A stretch of DNA of 64,000 nucleotides from positions 118,987-182,986 of the forward strand of contig NZ_FQVU01000007.1 of NCBI RefSeq assembly GCF_900129455.1, given 5' to 3'. The stretch's first letter is position 1. Every line of letters begins with the position of its first letter. Under the pieces are notes generated by a model, which saw nothing but the letters and a program-made list of their open reading frames with translations, was not told the DNA's origin and searched no databases. Origin of the DNA: Jatrophihabitans endophyticus. Its GTDB lineage: Bacteria; Actinomycetota; Actinomycetes; Mycobacteriales; Jatrophihabitantaceae. The position numbers and the translations under genes were made by a program. Below, piece after piece: positions 5,790 to 63,909 of the stretch.

Positions 5790-7550
5790 TCAGCCCAGCT
5801 CGTCGGCGAGCTCGAGCCAGGCCTGCTCGGCCGCCTCGCGCTCGGCGGTGACCTCGCGCAGCTCGGCGTCGAGCTCGGCCACCCGGGCGTAGTCGGTGGC
5901 GTGGGCGGCGAGCTGCTCGTGCAGCGTCGCCTCGCGTCGGCCCAGCGTCTCGACCCGCCGCTCCAGCCGGGTCAGCTCCTTGCGCGCGGCGCGGGTGTCG
6001 CCGCGCCGCTCGCGCCGCTCGTCGGCGGCGGTCGCGACGGCGGCGTCGGCCTGCGCCGAGCGGCGGGCGAGGTACTCCTCGACGCCCCCGGGCAGGGCGG
6101 CGAGCGAGCCGTCGCCGAGCAGCGCGACGACGGTGTCGCAGACCCGTTCCAGCAGATAGCGGTCGTGGCTGACGACGACGAGCGTCCCCGGCCACGCGTC
6201 GAGCAGGTCCTCGAGTGCGGCGAGGGTGTCGGTGTCGAGGTCGTTTGTCGGCTCGTCGAGCAGCAGCAGGTTGGGCTGGACGAGCAGCAGCCGCAGCAGC
6301 TGCAGCCGTCGCCGCTCGCCGCCGGACAGGTCGCCGACGGGCGTCCACTGCCGCTCGTTGGGGAAGCCGAAGCGCTCGGCGAGCTGGCCGGCCGACTGCT
6401 CGACGCCGCCGAGCTCGGCGGTCGTGCGGACCTCGCTGACCGCCTCGAGCACGCGCAGGGTCTCGGGCAGCTCGCGCAGCTCCTGGGTGAGGTGCCCTAC
6501 GTGGACGGTCTGCCCGATGGTCACCGTCCCGCTGTCGGGGGCGAGCTCGCCGGCCAGCAGCCGCAGCAGGTGGGTCTTTCCCGAGCCGTTGACGCCGACG
6601 ACGCCGATCCGGTCGCCGGGGCCGACGTGCCAGGTGACGTCGTCGAGCAGGGTGCGGCTGCCGCCGACGGTGACGGTGACGTCCTCGAGGTCGACGACGG
6701 TCCGACCGAGGCGGCGCTGGGCGAGCGCCCGCAGCTCGACCCCGCTGCGGGGCTCGGGGACGTCGGTGATCAGCGCCTCGGCGGCGGCGATGCGGAACTT
6801 CGGCTTGGACGTGCGCGCCGGCGCGCCACGGCGCAGCCAGGCGAGCTCCTTGCGCAGCAGGTTCTGCCGCCGCGCCTCGCTCGCGTCGGCCTGCCGGGCC
6901 CGCTCGGCCCGCGCCAGGACGTAGGCGGCGTAGCCGCCGTCGAACTGGCGGACGGTCGCATCCCCGATCTCCCACGTCCGCTCGACGACGGCGTCGAGGA
7001 ACCAGCGATCGTGGGTGACGACGAGCAGCGCGCCCTTGCGGCCGCGCAGGTGCTCGGCGAGCCAGGTGATGCCCTCGACGTCCAGGTGGTTGGTGGGCTC
7101 GTCGAGCACCAGCAGGTCGGCCTCCTGGACGAGCGCCGCCGCGAGGGCCACGCGACGCCGCTCGCCGCCGGAGAGTCGCGTGACGTCGGCATCGAGCCCC
7201 AGCGTCGCCAGGCCGAGCCCGCCGAGCACCGCCCGCACCGCGGCGTCGCCGGCCCACTCGTGGGTGGCGGCGTCGCCGACCACGACGTCGCGGACGGACG
7301 CGCCGTCGGGCAGCTCGCCACGCTGCGTCACGCGGGCGATGCGGAGGTCGCGGGTACGGGTGACCCGACCGGTGTCGGGCTGCTCCTCGCCGGTGACGAG
7401 CCGCAGCAGCGTCGACTTGCCGCCGCCGTTGCGCCCGACCACGCCGATGCGCTCGTTCGCGGCGAGGCCCAGCGAGACGCCGGCCAGGACGACGGTGGTG
7501 GCGTAGGCCTTCCCGACGTCCTCGAGGTTGACGAGGTTGGCCGCGGCCAT
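5790..7550 (-). CDS. ABC-F family ATP-binding protein
   Basis: A soluble protein with two ABC ATPase domains in one chain, of the type that acts on ribosomes (translation factors or antibiotic-protection proteins). In the 586 residues, domain 1 has GRNGGGKST, LSGGERRRV and LLVLDEPTNHLD; domain 2 has GVNGSGKTH, LSGGERRRL and LLLLDEPTNDLD. An arginine-rich linker separates them, and a charged coiled-coil tail (about residues 500-586) ends the protein. The ATG at 7550 is 13 bp after ispE. A longer ORF to 7922 would read antisense-like sequence across ispE and is rejected. A housekeeping role fits the ispE context better than drug resistance. Confidence 0.92.
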   Translation of the reverse strand: MAAANLVNLEDVGKAYATTVVLAGVSLGLAANERIGVVGRNGGGKSTLLRLVTGEEQPDTGRVTRTRDLRIARVTQRGELPDGASVRDVVVGDAATHEWAGDAAVRAVLGGLGLATLGLDADVTRLSGGERRRVALAAALVQEADLLVLDEPTNHLDVEGITWLAEHLRGRKGALLVVTHDRWFLDAVVERTWEIGDATVRQFDGGYAAYVLARAERARQADASEARRQNLLRKELAWLRRGAPARTSKPKFRIAAAEALITDVPEPRSGVELRALAQRRLGRTVVDLEDVTVTVGGSRTLLDDVTWHVGPGDRIGVVGVNGSGKTHLLRLLAGELAPDSGTVTIGQTVHVGHLTQELRELPETLRVLEAVSEVRTTAELGGVEQSAGQLAERFGFPNERQWTPVGDLSGGERRRLQLLRLLLVQPNLLLLDEPTNDLDTDTLAALEDLLDAWPGTLVVVSHDRYLLERVCDTVVALLGDGSLAALPGGVEEYLARRSAQADAAVATAADERRERRGDTRAARKELTRLERRVETLGRREATLHEQLAAHATDYARVAELDAELREVTAEREAAEQAWLELADELG

Positions 7551-7563
7551 CAGCGCGCGCCCA

Positions 7564-8478
7564 TCAGCCGACGACCGTCGCGCCGGCGGCCGGACCCGTC
7601 GCGACCCGGGCCGTCCGGCAGACGCCGGCAGACTCCAGCTCGGCGGCGAGGACGGTCGCTGCCGCGGCGTCCTCGCACAGGAAGGCGCACGTGGGGCCCG
7701 ACCCCGAGACGAGCGACGCGAGCGCGCCGCGGCCGGCGGCGAGGGTGTCGCGCAGCGCCGGCGCCAGGGAGAGCGCCGCGGGCTGCAGGTCGTTGCCGAG
7801 CCGGCCGGCAACGGCCGCGACGTCGCCGGCCGCCAGCGCGGCGAGCAGCGCCTCCGGCGCGCCGATCGGCGACGGAGCCGCACCGGCGTCGCGCAATCGG
7901 TCGAGCTCGCCGTACGCCGCACCGGCGGAGATGCCGGTGTCGGAGATCGCGAACACCCAGTGCAGCCGGGCGGGCGCGGCCACCGAGGTGAGCAGCTCGC
8001 CGCGGCCGGTGCCCACGGCCGTCCCGCCGAGGAGGGGGAAGGCGACGTCGCTGCCGAGGCGGCCGGCGAGCGAGACCAGGTCGTCGACCGAGACGTCGAG
8101 CTGCCACAGTCGGGCGCAGGCGAGCAGCGCGGCGGCGGCGTCGGCCGAACCGCCGGCCATGCCCCCGGCGACCGGGATCGCCTTGCGCACGTCGAGCCGG
8201 GCGACGGCCGGCACGCCGACCGCCTCGGCGAGCAGCGTCGCCGCGCGCCAGGCCAGGTTGTCGCCGTCGGTCGGCAGCGACGCGGCGCCCTCGCCGGTCA
8301 CCCCGAGCGACAGGGTGTCGGCGGGAGCGGCGTCGACCTCGTCGACGAGGTCGACGGCGTGGAAGACGTTGACGAGCTCGTGGTACCCGTCGGGGCGGCG
8401 CTCGCCCACCGAGAGGTGCAGGTTGACCTTGGCCGGCACCCGGACGCGGACCGGCGCAGTGGTCGGTCGGCTCGGCAC
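7564..8478 (-). CDS. ispE: 4-diphosphocytidyl-2-C-methyl-D-erythritol kinase
   Basis: A GHMP kinase of the MEP isoprenoid pathway that phosphorylates CDP-ME. The 304-residue protein has the N-terminal [20 protein letters not shown] motif and the ATP-binding loop [29 protein letters not shown] forms the third GHMP motif. The GTG at 8478 follows TACGCT by 6 nt (8485-8490, minus strand), consistent with a leaderless transcript. It lies upstream of the ABC-F gene on the same strand. The ksgA gene often found before ispE is not here. Confidence 0.95.
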
Positions 8479-8532
8479 CGGGCCAGCGTAATGAGGTGCC
8501 GCCCCGTGGTCGGCACGGGCTCGGGGAGCCGG

Positions 8533-8538
8533 TAGGCT
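8533..8538 (+). promoter_or_regulatory. Putative -10 element (TAGGCT) for rplY-pth
   Basis: TAGGCT fits the actinobacterial TANNNT consensus. It lies in the 192-bp gap between the divergent ispE and rplY starts, about 130 nt before rplY. No clear -35 element is visible. Confidence 0.35.
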
Positions 8539-8670
8539 GAACCGGTTGCCACGGCGAGGGACCGCAGTCCGACGGGTCCGTCATCGACGCGGTGTCGCTC
8601 GTCGACGCGCGTCCCGCGTCCGAGGCACCGCACCGACAACCGCCGAGATCATCGTCTGAGGAGTTCTGCT

Positions 8671-9357
8671 GTGTCCGAGGTCCGTCTGTCCGCCGAGACC
8701 CGCACCGAGTTCGGCAAGGGTGCCTCGCGCCGTACCCGGCGTGACGGCAAGGTGCCGGCCGTCGTCTACGGCCACGGCGAGGACCCGAAGCACGTCGCGC
8801 TGCCGGCCCACGAGTTCGCCGCCGCGATCCGCAACAACGGCGCCAACGTGCTGCTGACCCTCGCGCTCGAGGGCGGCGAGCAGCTCGCGATCCCGAAGTC
8901 GATCCAGCGCCACCCGATCAAGGGCTACTTCGAGCACGTCGACCTGCTGACCGTCCGCCGCGGCGAGAAGGTCACCGTCGACGTCCCGATCACCGTCACC
9001 GGCGAGGTCGTCCCTGGTGGCCTGCTCAACCAGGAGAACACCACCGTCTCGGTCGAGGCCGAGGCCACCCACATCCCGAGCGAGTTCGAGGTCAGCGTCG
9101 AGGGCCTCGAGATCGGCGGCCAGATCACCGCGGCCGACGTCACGCTGCCCGCGGGCTCCACGCTGGTCACCGACGGCGAGACCCTCATCCTGGCCATCGC
9201 CGAGGCGCCGACCGCCGAGGAGCTCGAGGCCGAGGTCGCCGAGGCGGCCGAGGAGCTCGGCATCGTCGAGGACGCCCCCGACGAGGACACCGCCGAGGGT
9301 GAGTCGGGCGAGGGCGAGTCGGCCGAGGGCGAGTCCGCCGAGACCGCGTCCGAGTAA
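8671..9357 (+). CDS. rplY: 50S ribosomal protein L25/general stress protein Ctc
   Basis: Binds 5S rRNA in the large ribosomal subunit. The 228-residue protein is the long CTC form. The L25 domain comes first (RTEFGKGASRRTRRDGKVPAVVYGHG) and then the TL5-type beta domain (VDVPITVTGEVVPGGLL; IGGQITAADVTLPAGS). The last 45 residues are a strongly acidic tail with GEGES/AEGES repeats. GTG start at 8671, preceded by GAGGAG 8 nt upstream. It is followed after 18 bp by pth, a usual partner. Confidence 0.96.
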   Translation: MSEVRLSAETRTEFGKGASRRTRRDGKVPAVVYGHGEDPKHVALPAHEFAAAIRNNGANVLLTLALEGGEQLAIPKSIQRHPIKGYFEHVDLLTVRRGEKVTVDVPITVTGEVVPGGLLNQENTTVSVEAEATHIPSEFEVSVEGLEIGGQITAADVTLPAGSTLVTDGETLILAIAEAPTAEELEAEVAEAAEELGIVEDAPDEDTAEGESGEGESAEGESAETASE

Positions 9358-12008: not shown

Positions 12009-14306
12009 ATGAACATCTGGCTCAAGCGCAGCCTGCAGATGGGGCTGCTCGGGGCCGGCGTCTGGCTGGTCGGTACCGGCATCGCCGAGGCCGACACGGC
12101 TCCCGCCGTCCCCCCATCGCAGGTCTCCCTGGCTCATGTCGACGTCGACGTGCCGGTGACGGTGGGCCACAACCACGTCACCGTCGCGAACGGTTCGGGT
12201 GACGCGTCGGCGCACTCGGACACCTCGGCGAAGGCGGGCTCGTCGTCGGGCTCGTCGTCGCGCTCCTCGGTCGTGGACGTGTCGGTGCACGTCCCGGTCA
12301 CGGTGAGCGACAACGACATGGCCGTCGCCGACGGCTCGAACTCGGGCGGCTCGAACTCGGGCGGCTCGAACTCGGGCGGCTCGAACTCGGGCGGCTCGAA
12401 CTCGGGCGGCTCGAACTCGGGCGGCTCGAAGGACACGGACAACGGCGGCTCGGCGAAGAGCGGCGCGGACAACGGCGGTGACGAGAAGGGCGGCGCGGAC
12501 GCGAAGCAGCGCTCGCTCGTCTCGGTCCCGGTCTCGGCGCCGATCACCGTCGCGGGCAACGCCGTCGGCGTCCTCGGTGACGCCGACAGCAGCAGCACCG
12601 GCGCGGGCTCGGCCGGCTCCGGTGGCGCGAGCGCGTCCGACGGTGCCGTCGAGGTGCCGGTGAACGCTCCGGTGACGGTGTGTGGCAACGGTGTCGGTGT
12701 GCTGGGTGAGGGCACGGCCGACTGCGGTGCCGGGTCCACCAGTTCGGGCGCGAGCGGCGACGGCAGCCTGGTCGAGGTGCCGGTGAACGCGCCGGTGACG
12801 GTGTGTGGCAACGGTGTCGGTGTCGCAGGCGACGCGGCGGCCGGGTGTGGTGCCGGGTCGGCGGGTTCGACCTCGACCGGTTCCGGTGGCGCGAGCGCGT
12901 CCGACGGTGCCGTCGAGGTGCCGGTGAACGCGCCGGTGACGGTGTGTGGCAATGGTGTCGGTGTCGCAGGTGACGCGGCGGCCGGGTGCGGTGCCGGGTC
13001 GGCGGGTTCGACCTCGACCGGCTCCGGTGGCGCGAGCGCGTCCGATGGTGCCGTCGAGGCGCCGGTGAACGCGCCGGTGACGGTGTGCGGCAACGGTGTC
13101 GGTGTCGCAGGTGACGCGGCGGCCGGGTGTGGTGCCGGGTCGGCGGGTTCGACCTCGACCGGCTCCGGTGGCGCGAGCGCGTCCGACGGTGCCGTCGAGG
13201 TGCCGGTGAATGCGCCGGTGACGGTGTGCGGCAACGGCGTGGGTGCCCTGGGTGACGCGTCGGCCGACTGCGCGAGCGGTTCGACCGGTGGCGCGACCAC
13301 CGGCGGCTCGGACGGTTCCACCGGTGGTGACGACGGCAGTGTCGCGGAGGTTCCGGTGAACGCGCCGGTGACGGTGTGCGGCAACGGTGTCGGTGTCGCA
13401 GGTGACGCGGCGGCCGGGTGTGGTGCGGGGTCGACTGCGGGTTCGTCGACCGGGTCGGGTGCCTCGACCGGGAACGACGGCGGTGTGGCGGAGGTTCCGG
13501 TGAACGCGCCGGTGACGGTGTGCGGCAACGGCGTGGGTGCCCTGGGTGACGCGTCGGCCGACTGCACGAGCGGTTCGACCGGTGGCGCGACCACCGGCGG
13601 CTCGGACGGTTCGACCGGTGGTGACGACGGCAGTGTCGCGGAGGTTCCGGTGAATGCGCCGGTGACGGTGTGCGGCAACGGCGTGGGTGCCCTGGGTGAC
13701 GCGTCGGCCGACTGCACGAGCGGTTCGACCGGTGGCGCGACCACCGGCGGCTCGGACGGTTCCACCGGCGGTGACGACACGATCGTCGACGTCCCGGTCG
13801 AGGTCCCGGTGACGGTGTGCGGCAACGCGGTCGGCAGCGCCGACTCCAGCTGCAGCACCACCACGACCACCGGCGGCGGCACGGACGGCGGCACGGACGG
13901 CGGCACGGTGACCGTGCCCGTCGACACCCCCGTCACGGTGTGCGGCAACGGGGTCGGCCTCCTGGGCACGGCGAGCGCGTCCTGCTCGACCGGCGGCGAC
14001 ACGCCCGGCACGAACGACCCGGGTACGAACGACCCGGGCAGCAACGACCCGGGCACGAACGATCCGGGCAGCAACGACCCGGGCTCGGACAACCCGACTG
14101 TGACCGACCCGGTCAACGCCGGCTCGGACACGACGGTGGAGGCGGCGACGAGCACGCCCGACTCGCACTCCAGCGACACGGTCGGTGGGGGACGTCAGCT
14201 CGCGCAGACCGGTGCGGACACCCGCGGAGTCCTCGTCGGTGCGGTGCTGCTGATGCTGCTCGGCTGCGTTCTCGGCTTCGCGGGACGGCGCCGGACGAAC
14301 GGCTGA
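12009..14306 (+). CDS. Multi-repeat chaplin-like surface protein with LAQTG wall anchor
   Basis: A 765-residue exported protein: signal peptide (about 1-29, ending GIAEA), 13 repeats, then LAQTG, a transmembrane helix (VLVGAVLLMLLGCVLGFAG) and RRRTNG. This is the layout of a class C sortase-type substrate. The core repeat is EVPVNAPVTVCGNGVGVAGD followed by a second cysteine about 6 residues on. It closely resembles the chaplin domain (VNVCGNTVNVIG...C), known for amyloid hydrophobic layers on Streptomyces aerial hyphae. The first three units lack cysteines; the last ten have the pair. SNSGG repeats and an NDPGT/NDPGS tail act as spacers. Streptomyces long chaplins have two domains, so 13 is unusual. 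RBS GAAGAGG lies 9 nt before the ATG. Confidence 0.85.
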   Translation: MNIWLKRSLQMGLLGAGVWLVGTGIAEADTAPAVPPSQVSLAHVDVDVPVTVGHNHVTVANGSGDASAHSDTSAKAGSSSGSSSRSSVVDVSVHVPVTVSDNDMAVADGSNSGGSNSGGSNSGGSNSGGSNSGGSNSGGSKDTDNGGSAKSGADNGGDEKGGADAKQRSLVSVPVSAPITVAGNAVGVLGDADSSSTGAGSAGSGGASASDGAVEVPVNAPVTVCGNGVGVLGEGTADCGAGSTSSGASGDGSLVEVPVNAPVTVCGNGVGVAGDAAAGCGAGSAGSTSTGSGGASASDGAVEVPVNAPVTVCGNGVGVAGDAAAGCGAGSAGSTSTGSGGASASDGAVEAPVNAPVTVCGNGVGVAGDAAAGCGAGSAGSTSTGSGGASASDGAVEVPVNAPVTVCGNGVGALGDASADCASGSTGGATTGGSDGSTGGDDGSVAEVPVNAPVTVCGNGVGVAGDAAAGCGAGSTAGSSTGSGASTGNDGGVAEVPVNAPVTVCGNGVGALGDASADCTSGSTGGATTGGSDGSTGGDDGSVAEVPVNAPVTVCGNGVGALGDASADCTSGSTGGATTGGSDGSTGGDDTIVDVPVEVPVTVCGNAVGSADSSCSTTTTTGGGTDGGTDGGTVTVPVDTPVTVCGNGVGLLGTASASCSTGGDTPGTNDPGTNDPGSNDPGTNDPGSNDPGSDNPTVTDPVNAGSDTTVEAATSTPDSHSSDTVGGGRQLAQTGADTRGVLVGAVLLMLLGCVLGFAGRRRTNG
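12336..12425 (+). repeat. Six perfect 15-bp tandem repeats encoding SNSGG
   Basis: The unit TCGAACTCGGGCGGC is repeated six times without change inside the chaplin-like gene. It encodes a flexible Ser/Asn/Gly linker and is a likely site of slippage length variation. Confidence 0.95.
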
Positions 14307-59911: not shown

Positions 59912-60057
59912 GTTTCCGACTGTAACGCTCGGTGATCACGGAACACAATAGGTGAGCGAAACCTGATCTTCGCCTTTGGTGGCGGGGCCGTAGAGGTGGT
60001 TGCCGCCGATCCCGTCCGGGCGCGATCGCGACGGCTCCGAAAGTCCGTTTCGCGCAC

Positions 60058-60063
60058 TAGGGT
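60058..60063 (+). promoter_or_regulatory. -10 element TAGGGT of leaderless MFS promoter
   Basis: TAGGGT, 7 nt, then GTG at 60071. This spacing decides the start codon over the upstream GTG at 59996. Confidence 0.55.
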
Positions 60064-60070
60064 GCGAGGC

Positions 60071-61345
60071 GTGAGGCGCGCCCGGGTCCCCGACGACTCC
60101 GCGCGCGTCGGACTCGGTCGACTGGTGCGCAATCGCACGTTCCTCCCGGTCTACATCGCCGAGGCGCAGTCGCTCTTCGGCGACCAGCTCGCCCGGGTCG
60201 CGCTCGCCGTGCTCGTGTTCTCCCGGACGGGGTCGACGCCGGCCACCGCCGTCGTCTACGCCGCGACCTTCGTCCCCGCCGTGTTCGGCGGGATGGTGCT
60301 CGGGCGGCTCGGCGACCGGTGGCCACGGCGGACCACGATGGTGGCCTGCGATGCGGCCCGCGCCCTGTGCTTCTTCGTGATGGTCCTGACGTCCACGCAC
60401 TTCGCGGTGGTCCTGGTGCTGGTGGTGGTCGCGGTCGCCGTCGGACCGGTCTTCTCGGCCGCGCAGCTGAGCCTGCTCGCGGCCCGACTGCCACCGGACG
60501 AGTTCGCGACCGCGAACGCGCTGCGCCTGGTGACCAGCCAGGCGGCCCAGGTCGGCGGCTTCGCCGCCGGTGGCGTGCTCGTGGCCGTCCTGGACCCGGC
60601 CGGGGCGTTGGCCATGAACGCGGCGACCTTCGCGCTGTCGTCGGTGCTGGTGTGGTTGTTCGTCGCGCTCGACCGGCGCGATTCCGTCGTCGGCGAGCCC
60701 GCCGAGGCAGCCGATGCCCTGCCCGGGGCCGTCGGCGACACGGACGCGAGCGTGCGCCGCGAGGCGCCGCCGGACTCCGCCGCCGCGCTCTGGCGCAACC
60801 GGCGGCTGCGCGTCCTGCTGGGACTGAGCCTGTGCATCGGCTTCTTCGTCGTGCCCGAGGGGCTGGCCGTCCCCTTCGCCGCCCACATCGGCGCGACCAC
60901 CGGGCAGGCCGGGCTGCTGCTCGCCGCGGGCGCGCTGGGAGGCGCGGGCGGCGCGGCCCTGCTGCTGCGCATGCGTCCCGGCGACCGGGCGCGTGCCGTC
61001 CCCACCATGGCGATCGGCTGCGGCCTCCCGCTCGTCCTCAGTGCGGTGCTGACGACGGTCACCGATGCGTGGTGGGTCGCCGGGGCGTGCTGGCTCGCGT
61101 CCGGCGGCTTCGCGGCCTACGTCGTGCAGACGACCAGCGAGCTCGTGCAGGCGATCCCCGACGAGAGACGCGCGCACCTCGTCGGCGTGGTCAGCGCGCT
61201 CACGCTCGCCGTGCAGGGCGTCGGCGTCGTGGTGTTCGGCGTGGTCGGACAGTGGACGACACCGCCCGCCGCGGTCGGCATCGCGGGGGCGGTGGGGGCG
61301 GCGCTGGTCGCGGCGCTGGTCGCCCAGGGTCGACACGGTCGGTGA
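60071..61345 (+). CDS. MFS transporter (MFS_3/enterobactin-exporter type)
   Basis: A 424-residue membrane protein with about 10-12 hydrophobic segments. The first loop is FGGMVLGRLGDRWPRRTTMV, an MFS motif A. The central cytoplasmic loop (about residues 195-240) is charged and disordered. Proteins of this group usually export small molecules. Substrate unknown. It is convergent with the MNSWHI mini-cistron array downstream, so a link with those peptides is possible but only positional. Confidence 0.88.
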   Translation: MRRARVPDDSARVGLGRLVRNRTFLPVYIAEAQSLFGDQLARVALAVLVFSRTGSTPATAVVYAATFVPAVFGGMVLGRLGDRWPRRTTMVACDAARALCFFVMVLTSTHFAVVLVLVVVAVAVGPVFSAAQLSLLAARLPPDEFATANALRLVTSQAAQVGGFAAGGVLVAVLDPAGALAMNAATFALSSVLVWLFVALDRRDSVVGEPAEAADALPGAVGDTDASVRREAPPDSAAALWRNRRLRVLLGLSLCIGFFVVPEGLAVPFAAHIGATTGQAGLLLAAGALGGAGGAALLLRMRPGDRARAVPTMAIGCGLPLVLSAVLTTVTDAWWVAGACWLASGGFAAYVVQTTSELVQAIPDERRAHLVGVVSALTLAVQGVGVVVFGVVGQWTTPPAAVGIAGAVGAALVAALVAQGRHGR

Positions 61346-61898: not shown

Positions 61899-61919
61899 TC
61901 AGATGTGCCAGGAGTTCAT
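61899..61919 (-). CDS. Mini-cistron 1 (last in transcript): hexapeptide MNSWHI
   Basis: Six codons plus TGA, starting with ATG. GGAGGA (61925-61930, minus strand) lies 5 nt upstream of the start, an ideal Shine-Dalgarno spacing. The only copy with ATG. The upstream 47 bases are the same as for copy 2. Encoded peptide M-N-S-W-H-I; function unknown. Confidence 0.6.
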   Translation of the reverse strand: MNSWHI

Positions 61920-61966
61920 GGGGTTCCTCCGGGGGTGAGGGGTGGTTGCGCTGCGGGGGCTGAGGC

Positions 61967-61987
61967 TCAGATGTGCCAGGAGTTCAC
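61967..61987 (-). CDS. Mini-cistron 2: hexapeptide MNSWHI (GTG start)
   Basis: Same six codons with GTG instead of ATG. GGAGGA at 61993-61998 (minus strand), 5 nt before the start. Exactly 68 bp from copy 1. Confidence 0.6.
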   Translation of the reverse strand: MNSWHI

Positions 61988-62034
61988 GGGGTTCCTCCGG
62001 GGGTGAGGGGTGGTTGCGCTGCGGGGGCTGAGGC

Positions 62035-62055
62035 TCAGATGTGCCAGGAGTTCAC
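62035..62055 (-). CDS. Mini-cistron 3: hexapeptide MNSWHI (GTG start)
   Basis: Same six codons, GGAGGA at 62061-62066 (minus strand), 5 nt before the start. 68 bp from copy 2; the sequence further upstream differs from copies 1 and 2, yet the RBS and ORF are kept. Confidence 0.6.
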   Translation of the reverse strand: MNSWHI

Positions 62056-62100
62056 GGGGTTCCTCCGGTTGGTCGCGGTGTGCGGGACGAGGGGCGGGGC

Positions 62101-62121
62101 TCAGATGTGCCAGGAGTTCAC
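62101..62121 (-). CDS. Mini-cistron 4: hexapeptide MNSWHI (GTG start)
   Basis: Same six codons. The RBS is a different sequence, GAGGAG at 62128-62133 (minus strand), 6 nt before the start. The spacer is unrelated to that of copies 1-3, so RBS and peptide appear to be kept independently of the flanks. Confidence 0.6.
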   Translation of the reverse strand: MNSWHI

Positions 62122-62162
62122 GGCTGTCTCCTCGGGTCGACGGGCTCGGACGGGGGCGGGGC

Positions 62163-62285
62163 TCAGATGTGCCAGGAGTTCACGGGAGGCCTCCCTTCGT
62201 GAGGGGTCGACGGCCGGCGACGCGCGTCGCGCAAAGGCGACCCGCCGTCGGCGAGAACGAGCAAGGGGCAATGCCACGAGATCAC
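62163..62285 (-). CDS. Promoter-proximal unit: 40-codon ORF MISWHC... ending in NSWHI, with internal mini-cistron 5
   Basis: GTG 62285 has AGGGGA 5 nt upstream and opens a frame reading MISWHCPLLVLADGG, then an Arg-rich part, ending RPPVNSWHI. Codon 35 is the GTG at 62183, which has its own GGGAGG (62190-62195) and gives the hexapeptide MNSWHI as in copies 1-4. The protein start MISWH echoes MNSWH, as if the first unit had lost its stop codon. GGGAGGCCTCCC just before the inner GTG is self-complementary and could hide the inner RBS. Function unknown. Confidence 0.5.
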   Translation of the reverse strand: MISWHCPLLVLADGGSPLRDARRRPSTPHEGRPPVNSWHI

Positions 62286-62610: not shown

Positions 62611-63909
62611 GTGACTACAGCGTTCGGGCGGCGACTGGCTCGGTCCAGTTGGCCGATCAGCGCTGCGCCGACCCCGATGGCGGCCTACCTGCTGCTCGTC
62701 GACGCGCTGGCCCTCGTGTGGGTGGTCCGCAGTGTCGCCACCACCGGTTTCGACGTCCACGGCCTGGGCGTGCTGCTGCTGTTGGTGGTCACCGCCATCG
62801 GCTTCGAGGAGGGATCGAGCCGCGCGGCGCGGCTGCAGATCCGGTTGAGCGCTCCCATGCGCACCGACATGACCTCGGTGTGGGCCGTGTGCGCCGCGGT
62901 CGCGCTCGCACCGGCGCACGGCGTCATGCTGCTGATCGCCGTCTGCGTGTACGTCTGGTTCCGCCAGCAGCGGCCGGCCGGCGAGGCCCTGTTCCGCAAG
63001 TGGTTCGTCGCCTCCACCATCGTCGCGGGCTCGCTGGTCGCCGGCGACGTGTACACCTTCGTGCGCGACGCCGCGGCCGACCTGCCGTGGGGGCTCGGCA
63101 GTCCCCTGGCCATCGTCGCCGCCATCGTGGCCTACACCGTCTGCAACCGCGGGCTCGTCTCCGTGGTCCTGCTGCTCACCGCCGCGCCGCTGCGAAACCT
63201 CGTCGGCTCGCTGCACGACAACCTGATCGAACTCGCCACGTTGTGCCTCGGCGGCCTGGTCGCGCTGGCCGTCATGTTCGAGCCCTGGCTCGTCATCCTC
63301 GTCCTCGCCCCCATGGTGTCGCTGCAGCGCACCGCGCTCGTCCGCGAGCTGGAGCAGGCCGCGATCACCGACGCCAAGACCCGCCTGCTCAACGCCGTCG
63401 CGTGGGAGCACCTCGCCCAGCGGGAGATCTCGCGTGCCGAGCGGGAACGGCAGGGGCTGGCGGTGCTCATCATCGACATCGACCGCTTCAAGGGCGTCAA
63501 CGACCGCTTCGGGCACCTCGCGGGCGACAAGGTGCTCGCCACCGTCGCGCGCACCATCGAGGCCTCGGTGCGCGAGTACGACGGGCTCGGCCGCTTCGGC
63601 GGGGAGGAGTTCGTCGCCGTGCTGCCCGACTGCGACGAGCGCACCGCGATGCTCGTCGCCGAGCGGGTGCGCGCACGCGTCAACCAGGTGGACGTCGGCG
63701 AGATGTTCGCCCCGCCCGCCTCGGGGCCGTTGGCGCCCGACCGGTTGTCGGTCTCGGTGGGCGTGGCGCTGCTGCGCCTGGACGGCAGCGAGCTCACCGA
63801 CCTCCTGCACGCCGCCGACCAGGCGCTCTACCGCGCCAAGCACAACGGCCGCAACCAGGTCCAGCTCGCCCGCCGCGGTGGCGAGGTCCCCGACCGCGTC
63901 GTCGCCTAG
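62611..63909 (+). CDS. Membrane-bound diguanylate cyclase (GGDEF)
   Basis: Makes cyclic di-GMP from two GTP. The 432-residue protein has six to eight N-terminal membrane helices (about 20-245), then a GGDEF domain: AITDAKTRLLNAVAWEHLAQ, IIDIDRFKGVNDRFGHLAGD, RFGGEEFVAVLPDCD (active GGEEF), SVSVGVALL and ADQALYRAKHNGRNQV. An RxxD inhibitory site (REYD) lies five residues before GGEEF. No EAL domain. GTG at 62611 with GGTAGGA upstream. The exopolysaccharide island 8 kb away is a conceivable target of cyclic di-GMP control, but no receptor domain is seen there. Confidence 0.93.
   Translation: MTTAFGRRLARSSWPISAAPTPMAAYLLLVDALALVWVVRSVATTGFDVHGLGVLLLLVVTAIGFEEGSSRAARLQIRLSAPMRTDMTSVWAVCAAVALAPAHGVMLLIAVCVYVWFRQQRPAGEALFRKWFVASTIVAGSLVAGDVYTFVRDAAADLPWGLGSPLAIVAAIVAYTVCNRGLVSVVLLLTAAPLRNLVGSLHDNLIELATLCLGGLVALAVMFEPWLVILVLAPMVSLQRTALVRELEQAAITDAKTRLLNAVAWEHLAQREISRAERERQGLAVLIIDIDRFKGVNDRFGHLAGDKVLATVARTIEASVREYDGLGRFGGEEFVAVLPDCDERTAMLVAERVRARVNQVDVGEMFAPPASGPLAPDRLSVSVGVALLRLDGSELTDLLHAADQALYRAKHNGRNQVQLARRGGEVPDRVVA

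Follow-up and report, generated by a model that had tools for sequence, protein, structure and literature searches.

A tandem array of MNSWHI mini-cistrons in Jatrophihabitans endophyticus, a candidate peptide signal for the neighbouring diguanylate cyclase

The subject of this study is a stretch of 64,000 nucleotides of the Jatrophihabitans endophyticus genome (assembly GCF_900129455.1, contig NZ_FQVU01000007.1, positions 118,987 to 182,986), called the window in what follows. Its minus strand carries, between positions 61,899 and 62,183, five very short genes, or mini-cistrons, for the same hexapeptide, MNSWHI. They lie in the 1,265-base gap between a convergent gene for a major facilitator superfamily (MFS) transporter and a divergent gene for a predicted membrane diguanylate cyclase (DGC) with a GGDEF domain. 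The sequences make it probable, in our judgement, that the peptide is a signal that sets cyclic di-GMP (c-di-GMP), with the MFS protein as its exporter and the cyclase as its sensor. The units, located in the sequence by pattern and ribosome-binding site (RBS) match, are the following:

62163..62183, minus strand: MNSWHI unit farthest upstream on its own strand; GTG start, GGGAGG at 62190-62195
62101..62121, minus strand: MNSWHI unit; GTG start, GAGGAG upstream
62035..62055, minus strand: MNSWHI unit; GTG start, GGAGGA upstream
61967..61987, minus strand: MNSWHI unit; GTG start, GGAGGA upstream
61899..61919, minus strand: MNSWHI unit; ATG start, GGAGGA upstream

Each unit is the 21-base sequence (A/G)TG-AAC-TCC-TGG-CAC-ATC-TGA, and the five are arranged head-to-tail at spacings of 68, 68, 66 and 62 nucleotides. 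With up to three mismatches allowed, the pattern occurs in the window at exactly these five places, while 100 shuffles gave a mean of 0.02 matches and a maximum of 1. Every start codon is preceded by a 5-nucleotide match to the complement of the anti-Shine-Dalgarno sequence, ending 6 nucleotides before it. The pattern scan, the shuffles and these matches confirm what an original prediction, made from the sequence alone, had proposed: five tandem cistrons, each with its own Shine-Dalgarno sequence. Its remark that flanks and RBS differ between copies also holds: numbered by coordinate, units 1 and 2 are 99% identical over 68 nucleotides, and units 3, 4 and 5 are 71, 65 and 69% identical to unit 1 over the same length. 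The frame has six codons with its own RBS and stop, and is thus not a long precursor; nor is its product a pentapeptide of the MxYxH kind. A search against Rfam gave a single match, far below the gathering score, and no promoter or terminator pattern was found. Since the five cores are identical in DNA except for the start codon, the window alone cannot separate conservation of the peptide from conservation of the DNA.

The two genes that frame the array, and the part of the second that is a candidate peptide receptor, are:

59996..61345, plus strand: MFS transporter gene, convergent to the array; PF07690 at 80.9 bits and PF05977 at 34.4 bits, both above cut-off (protein P0106)
62611..63909, plus strand: predicted membrane DGC gene, divergent from the array; PF00990 at 139.5 bits, with GGEEF and RxxD motifs (protein P0001)
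62611..63330, plus strand: sensor part of the DGC, residues 1-240, a multi-helix membrane domain and candidate peptide receptor

The convergent MFS gene had been correctly described, and it recurs in relatives; the divergent GGDEF gene was absent from the original prediction. The latter is assigned as a diguanylate cyclase by sequence, from its GGDEF domain with a catalytic GG(D/E)EF motif, here GGEEF. Both start codons are uncertain, the database versions having 424 residues against our 449 for the MFS protein, and 410 against 432 for the DGC.

Relatives found through the MFS protein have the order MFS gene, gap and GGDEF gene, and in their gaps the strand opposite to the MFS gene carries mini-cistrons that encode other peptides. 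Between one and 16 of them occupy this slot beside the DGC gene, mostly with a tryptophan (Trp) near the C terminus. Tandem peptides include MQGWSF in three copies, MQNWGL in four, an NNVTWR type in four, TVVNWS in seven, NSNSW in seven and N(V/L/I)WDW in five; among the single mini-cistrons are MRSNDWH, MRLHTEWL and MRDSNW. When MFS profiles were searched in the order (150 genomes) and in the class (148 genomes), many more mini-cistrons came to light, MRDTTW(S/R) reaching 13 copies and MRSRDW/MSRDW 16. A phylum-wide search at a stricter limit matched 2 of 149 genomes, the one studied here and another of the same class.

Two other genomes of the genus were covered, and one of them encodes a DGC with a sensor that shares 55% identity with that of the window. 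Divergent from it, and reaching the end of the contig, is an array encoding MYTWHL, MYTWHI and a third YTWHI unit that starts with CTG; the ending WH(I/L) is common to these peptides and MNSWHI. The original prediction had proposed to look in homologous arrays for broken starts, stops, RBS or frames: in this congener, the three visible units all keep RBS, frame and stop, and begin with ATG, ATG and CTG. Searches for the exact peptide misled, because the slot is kept and the peptide is not. A degenerate MN-(S or like)-WHI pattern run over genome contigs gave 49 stretches with one match each, none titled as an actinobacterium (two are titled “bacterium”), which we read as chance; an RBS followed by a W-H pattern, in 24 genomes of the family, matched the J. 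endophyticus genome only, and a search of plasmids gave no match.

The layout admits variants. Mini-cistrons are on the MFS strand at a few loci (L107, L108, L109 and L141, and one mini-cistron at L113). At L130, L148, L159, L169 and L215, the MFS gene is followed by a GGDEF-type gene on the same strand, and then by a single antisense Trp mini-cistron just past its 3' end. The arrays of L090 and L091 (the same loci as L247 and L246) lie on the DGC gene's far side. Two loci have, in the gap between the MFS and GGDEF genes, a single open reading frame (ORF) of PTDW cores, six in L124 and eight in L126, instead of separate mini-cistrons, an arrangement that we liken to a pheromone polyprotein. 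A short frame ending in FCWLTW was also noticed on the MFS strand of L148, L159 and L169, some 2.9 kb after the MFS gene. The idea of an invariant Trp was dropped: Trp-less mini-cistrons at GGDEF loci comprise the MRNRDN, MCGRDN, MAGRDQ, MNGRED, MRGKEQ, SRDF and MRNREY types, to which the two PTDW polyproteins are added.

A single genome can hold several modules. Genome G085 has modules of the MRGQNW, MAGRDQ, MNGRED, MTNKDW and SRDF types, and genome G127 has MCGRDN, MRGKEQ, a PTDW polyprotein, MSDKGW, MSNRDF and MRNRES, which suggests parallel channels. Since many related actinobacteria keep the layout around different peptides, these genes probably form a family of peptide signals not described before. 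The MNSWHI array is one member of a large, hypervariable and class-wide family of actinobacterial modules, each pairing minipeptides with a DGC.

The relatives provide the variation that the window lacks. The comparison used 41 tandem arrays, 194 copies in all. Codon differences of a single base between neighbouring copies number 96; of these, 83 are synonymous and 13 nonsynonymous, where about 68 would be nonsynonymous without constraint. Membership in an array required at least three of the last five residues to be alike, a rule that itself favours synonymous change. The differences fall on codon positions 1, 2 and 3 in the numbers 24, 21 and 99, with 839 sites each, and copies within arrays diverge by 5.7% in the coding part but by 48% in the 18 nucleotides that follow the stop. 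The p-values for selection are nominal, because array detection relied on similar peptides and the copies are not independent, and the excess at third positions is still large. The window's own array contributes no differences. Twelve repeat readings (antisense to arrays, in spacers, or in a repeat gene) were removed by hand from these counts and from the co-occurrence counts below; duplicate rows (the window, and the MLxNW arrays of L110 and L111) were removed from the selection counts, in which L109 enters twice. The synonymous excess between adjacent copies thus indicates that the peptide is what is kept, and the selection on translation that had been claimed for the window is supported through its relatives.

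Six or seven residues are encoded in 33 of the 41 arrays, and 35 have a Trp within the last three residues, while six have no Trp at all. Matches of at least 6 bases to the anti-Shine-Dalgarno complement precede 106 of the 194 copies and occur in 3 of 194 downstream controls, a comparison tilted by the 4-base core that array detection required upstream. A scan blind to residues, applied to the window and 20 loci (428 kb), detected tandem units at the array sites; elsewhere, it detected only the window's repeat gene (12,944-13,670) and frames antisense to the arrays.

Which genes accompany the arrays? Among 21 array loci, a sample biased by being drawn from the MFS searches and picked for having mini-cistrons, clustering of the neighbouring genes puts an MFS protein in all 21 and a GGDEF protein in 18. 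Of the other three loci, L229 and L230 have a gene for a GGDEF-EAL protein directly after the array, and L228 has a divergent gene for a TPR protein. The next clusters, present in 8, 7 and 4 loci, consist of frames that run antisense to the MFS or GGDEF genes; the largest of them also contains two frames on the same strand. Every remaining family occurs in at most three loci. No maturase family recurs at these loci; nor does any third gene family recur widely that could be an Rgg-type regulator, judged by clustering and with no Rgg profile.

The co-occurrence of arrays and c-di-GMP genes was counted in 132 of 138 MFS loci, those with at least 1 kb on both sides; six were dropped for short flanks. 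Tandem arrays are present at 38 of 76 loci with a c-di-GMP gene nearby, against 1 of 56 without (Fisher p 9e-11), in a sample where many flanks extend to only 1.5 kb and the loci are related, hence not independent. The exception is L228 (with L109), the only tandem-array MFS locus without a c-di-GMP gene, which has a divergent TPR protein at 6404-8959 on the minus strand, with an NB-ARC match below cut-off, perhaps another kind of receptor. Single Trp mini-cistrons, as called by script, add another 10 of the 76 DGC-bearing loci, and they are also found at 8 of the 56 without. At the 28 remaining DGC-bearing loci, mini-cistrons or polyproteins could be placed in 25, some with other C-termini (MNGRED, MAGRDQ, MRGQNW), and L120, L154 and L211 are empty; this reading was by eye or string match, not blind, and was confined to loci with a DGC. 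Finally, among the more distant MFS relatives many lack both an array and a neighbouring DGC (47 of the 132 loci).

A second search was meant to reduce the bias towards MFS: its query was residues 1-240 of the GGDEF protein, and it covered 150 genomes of the order. This sensor-first search listed 61 places in 29 genomes; for 47, an MFS place lies no more than 2.5 kb away, as judged from the 57 MFS places of the order-wide search. We read 37 of the 61 loci and found mini-cistrons at 30. Among the 30 best-scoring loci, the window's included, 27 have mini-cistrons (22 by script, L259-L262 by match and L264 by reading), and L256, L257 and L268 have none visible. Seven further places have no MFS relative in the stretch: three of them carry mini-cistrons (MNAHAWG twice, MQHWNWG, and MRNRES five times) and four do not. 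Mini-cistrons where no MFS relative is seen in the locus are those of L272, L275, L276 and L282. At L246 and L247, array and DGC gene are divergent though the MFS gene is on the DGC's other side. The cyclase is therefore the closest partner of the array, and the MFS protein its usual third part.

Related sensor cyclases with no visible mini-cistron were also noted (L256/L279, L257/L280, L274, L277, L278 and L281); they may be orphan receptors, or their peptides may have been missed by the patterns. Across 18 modules, the sensor part diverges more than the catalytic part (0.72 against 0.54). A Mantel comparison of MFS and GGDEF distances in the same number of modules, with sensor pieces roughly cut from stop-to-stop frames, gave r 0.57 and p 0.0001, a correlation that common descent would also give.

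The following mechanism would account for the module. The five mini-cistrons would be translated into a leaderless hexapeptide at high dose, which the neighbouring MFS protein would export; the membrane domain of the divergent predicted DGC would bind it as an autoinducing signal, and this binding would set c-di-GMP. Several copies would raise the output, and frames this short would suit reiterative translation by one ribosome. According to a passage of PMC6495379, frames of 2-8 codons can be translated reiteratively without the ribosome leaving the RNA, the 7-codon mccA for an estimated 71 rounds in vitro. The original prediction had offered several roles, among which the signalling peptide is the best supported, because the array's closest conserved partner gene encodes a membrane diguanylate cyclase. 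A general role in titrating ribosomes, or Trp or histidine tRNAs, is not supported, because histidine is not kept and six arrays lack Trp.

Among the alternatives, a minimal ribosomally synthesized and post-translationally modified peptide (RiPP) or a peptide antibiotic is unlikely. In this reading, an enzyme whose gene lies elsewhere would modify the precursor, the MFS protein would export it, and the DGC would only regulate its production. There are precedents: in microcin C, an MFS pump accompanies a gene of 7 codons (in a passage of PMC7680869), 18-bp biarylitide genes occur in six copies in one Lysinibacillus strain (in an excerpt of PMC13417212), and the genome has 11 P450 (PF00067) matches. 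However, all 11 are on other contigs, so that the earlier remark that no P450 is visible holds for the whole contig of the array; the five ThiF (PF00899) matches, one of which exceeds its cut-off, are also elsewhere. The proposal of a precursor of the biarylitide kind is thus left with no P450 on the contig, which stops 91 bases past the DGC gene, and no conserved maturase family at the 21 array loci, though a maturase encoded at a distance may act on the peptide. The peptide endings are, moreover, highly variable, and arrays remain beside the DGC gene where no MFS relative is seen.

Another alternative is a purely intracellular role, with the peptide as ligand or subunit of the DGC inside the cell and the MFS protein only clearing it. 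The partnership of the array with the DGC is closer than with the MFS gene, and leaderless peptides, with no signal sequence, begin in the cytoplasm. Against it stand the MFS genes at 21 of 21 array loci, with the MFS-search bias already mentioned, and near 47 of 61 sensor places. The AlphaFold2 model of the DGC has a pLDDT of 91.3, and the predicted fold of its sensor domain resembles the S-components of ECF transporters (RibU, BioY, ThiT), a lead only, which also speaks for the signalling reading; Foldseek and VIA-align with the whole DGC gave only GGDEF-domain structures among the matches listed. ECF S-components take up ligands from outside, and such a likeness, as far as a predicted fold can tell, is to domains for outside ligands. 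We regard the intracellular role as unlikely too.

It is improbable that the array acts in cis, as RNA or through translation, to control the divergent DGC gene, the peptide being irrelevant. The array is directly upstream of that gene, and in L229 and L230 the gene directly after the array on the same strand encodes a GGDEF-EAL protein; but the third-position bias with few nonsynonymous changes, the variant layouts whose mini-cistron lies past the DGC gene at its 3' end, and the PTDW polyproteins at two loci all speak against it. A passive, functionless tandem repeat, of which the two adjacent units with 99% identity over 68 nucleotides are reminiscent, as after a recent duplication, has a negligible chance: each unit retains its RBS, start, frame and stop although the spacers vary, the third-position bias appears in relatives, the same slot is filled in many genera, and the selection, the 38 of 76 against 1 of 56, and the sensor-first results contradict it as far as sequence can.

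How does the proposed signalling module compare with known systems? Streptococcal SHP and XIP are short Trp-rich signals from small genes, sensed intracellularly by Rgg or ComR; no Rgg/ComR gene family recurs at the array loci, as judged by clustering. ComX of Bacillus is cut from a longer precursor, isoprenylated by ComQ and sensed by a histidine kinase, and is very variable outside one residue. That residue is a key tryptophan (in a passage of PMC5331326), a likeness to the minigene family, which differs by its frames of 5-10 residues and its DGC. Microcin C resembles the MNSWHI locus in layout only, that of a minigene with a neighbouring MFS pump: in PMC7680869, the 7-codon gene mccA for a leaderless peptide stands beside an efflux pump, MccC, which a passage assigns to the MFS and a table of the same review to the ABC type, and its short frame is reiteratively translated in vitro (excerpt of PMC6495379). 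The MNSWHI locus has no ThiF-type adenylyltransferase (MccB) on its contig, has tandem copies, and has a diguanylate cyclase as partner. Biarylitides, with a five-residue precursor from an 18-bp gene, bytA, and up to six copies in Lysinibacillus (same excerpt of PMC13417212), are defined by a linked P450 and motifs like MxYxH, and the peptide sequences are others here. We thus do not file the array with biarylitides or microcin C, because its contig has no P450 or ThiF match.

The BDSF-RpfR system, and AI-2 with a dCACHE cyclase, are alike in that a signal made by cells acts directly on a c-di-GMP enzyme; the sensor at the MNSWHI locus differs in being a multi-helix membrane domain. In the passages seen of a 2022 review of c-di-GMP sensing (PMC8846402), these two quorum molecules are named with direct evidence, and no peptide is named. 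MASE9-GGDEF proteins are also comparable: the MASE9 profile (PF20972) matches 8 of 51 DGC relatives at E <=0.01, four of which were checked to be above cut-off, and it matches neither the window's DGC nor 18 array-linked DGCs (set A3). Among the open-access matches listed, no description of a system of mini-cistrons and DGC was found, and searches by peptide strings gave only unrelated text in the best 12 of 108 matches.

If the proposed role is true, this is the first direct route from a peptide to c-di-GMP known to us, written in genes too short for annotation. Little is known, to our knowledge, of the outside-cell inputs that set c-di-GMP in streptomycetes. In these bacteria, c-di-GMP steers development and secondary metabolism (passages of PMC4151990 and PMC7026642). 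A candidate ligand and a candidate receptor stand side by side in each genome, and the question is thus directly testable. A gene-finding rule for 5-10 codons also follows, namely units of RBS, start and stop, often in tandem, beside a membrane DGC gene. We are evenly divided on the broader proposal of a private peptide language of actinobacteria, in which tandem genes of 18 to 33 bases would encode leaderless peptides of 5-10 residues, exported by MFS proteins and translated directly into c-di-GMP by DGCs with an ECF S-component-like receptor, and in which one genome would have at least five parallel channels, each with a peptide of its own.

Some features of the surroundings complete the description. 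The MFS gene is preceded by a MazG gene and, identified by eye, mfd; Jatrophihabitans fulvus is the best species-named match for both the MFS and the DGC proteins. The contig ends with the window, 91 bases after the DGC gene, and nothing beyond is therefore visible in this genome. Far from the array, at 12009-14306 on the plus strand, the window encodes a repeat protein of 765 residues with chaplin-type repeats (PF03777 ChpA-C, 78.9 bits), in which many near-identical VPVNAPVTVCGNGVGV stretches are found.
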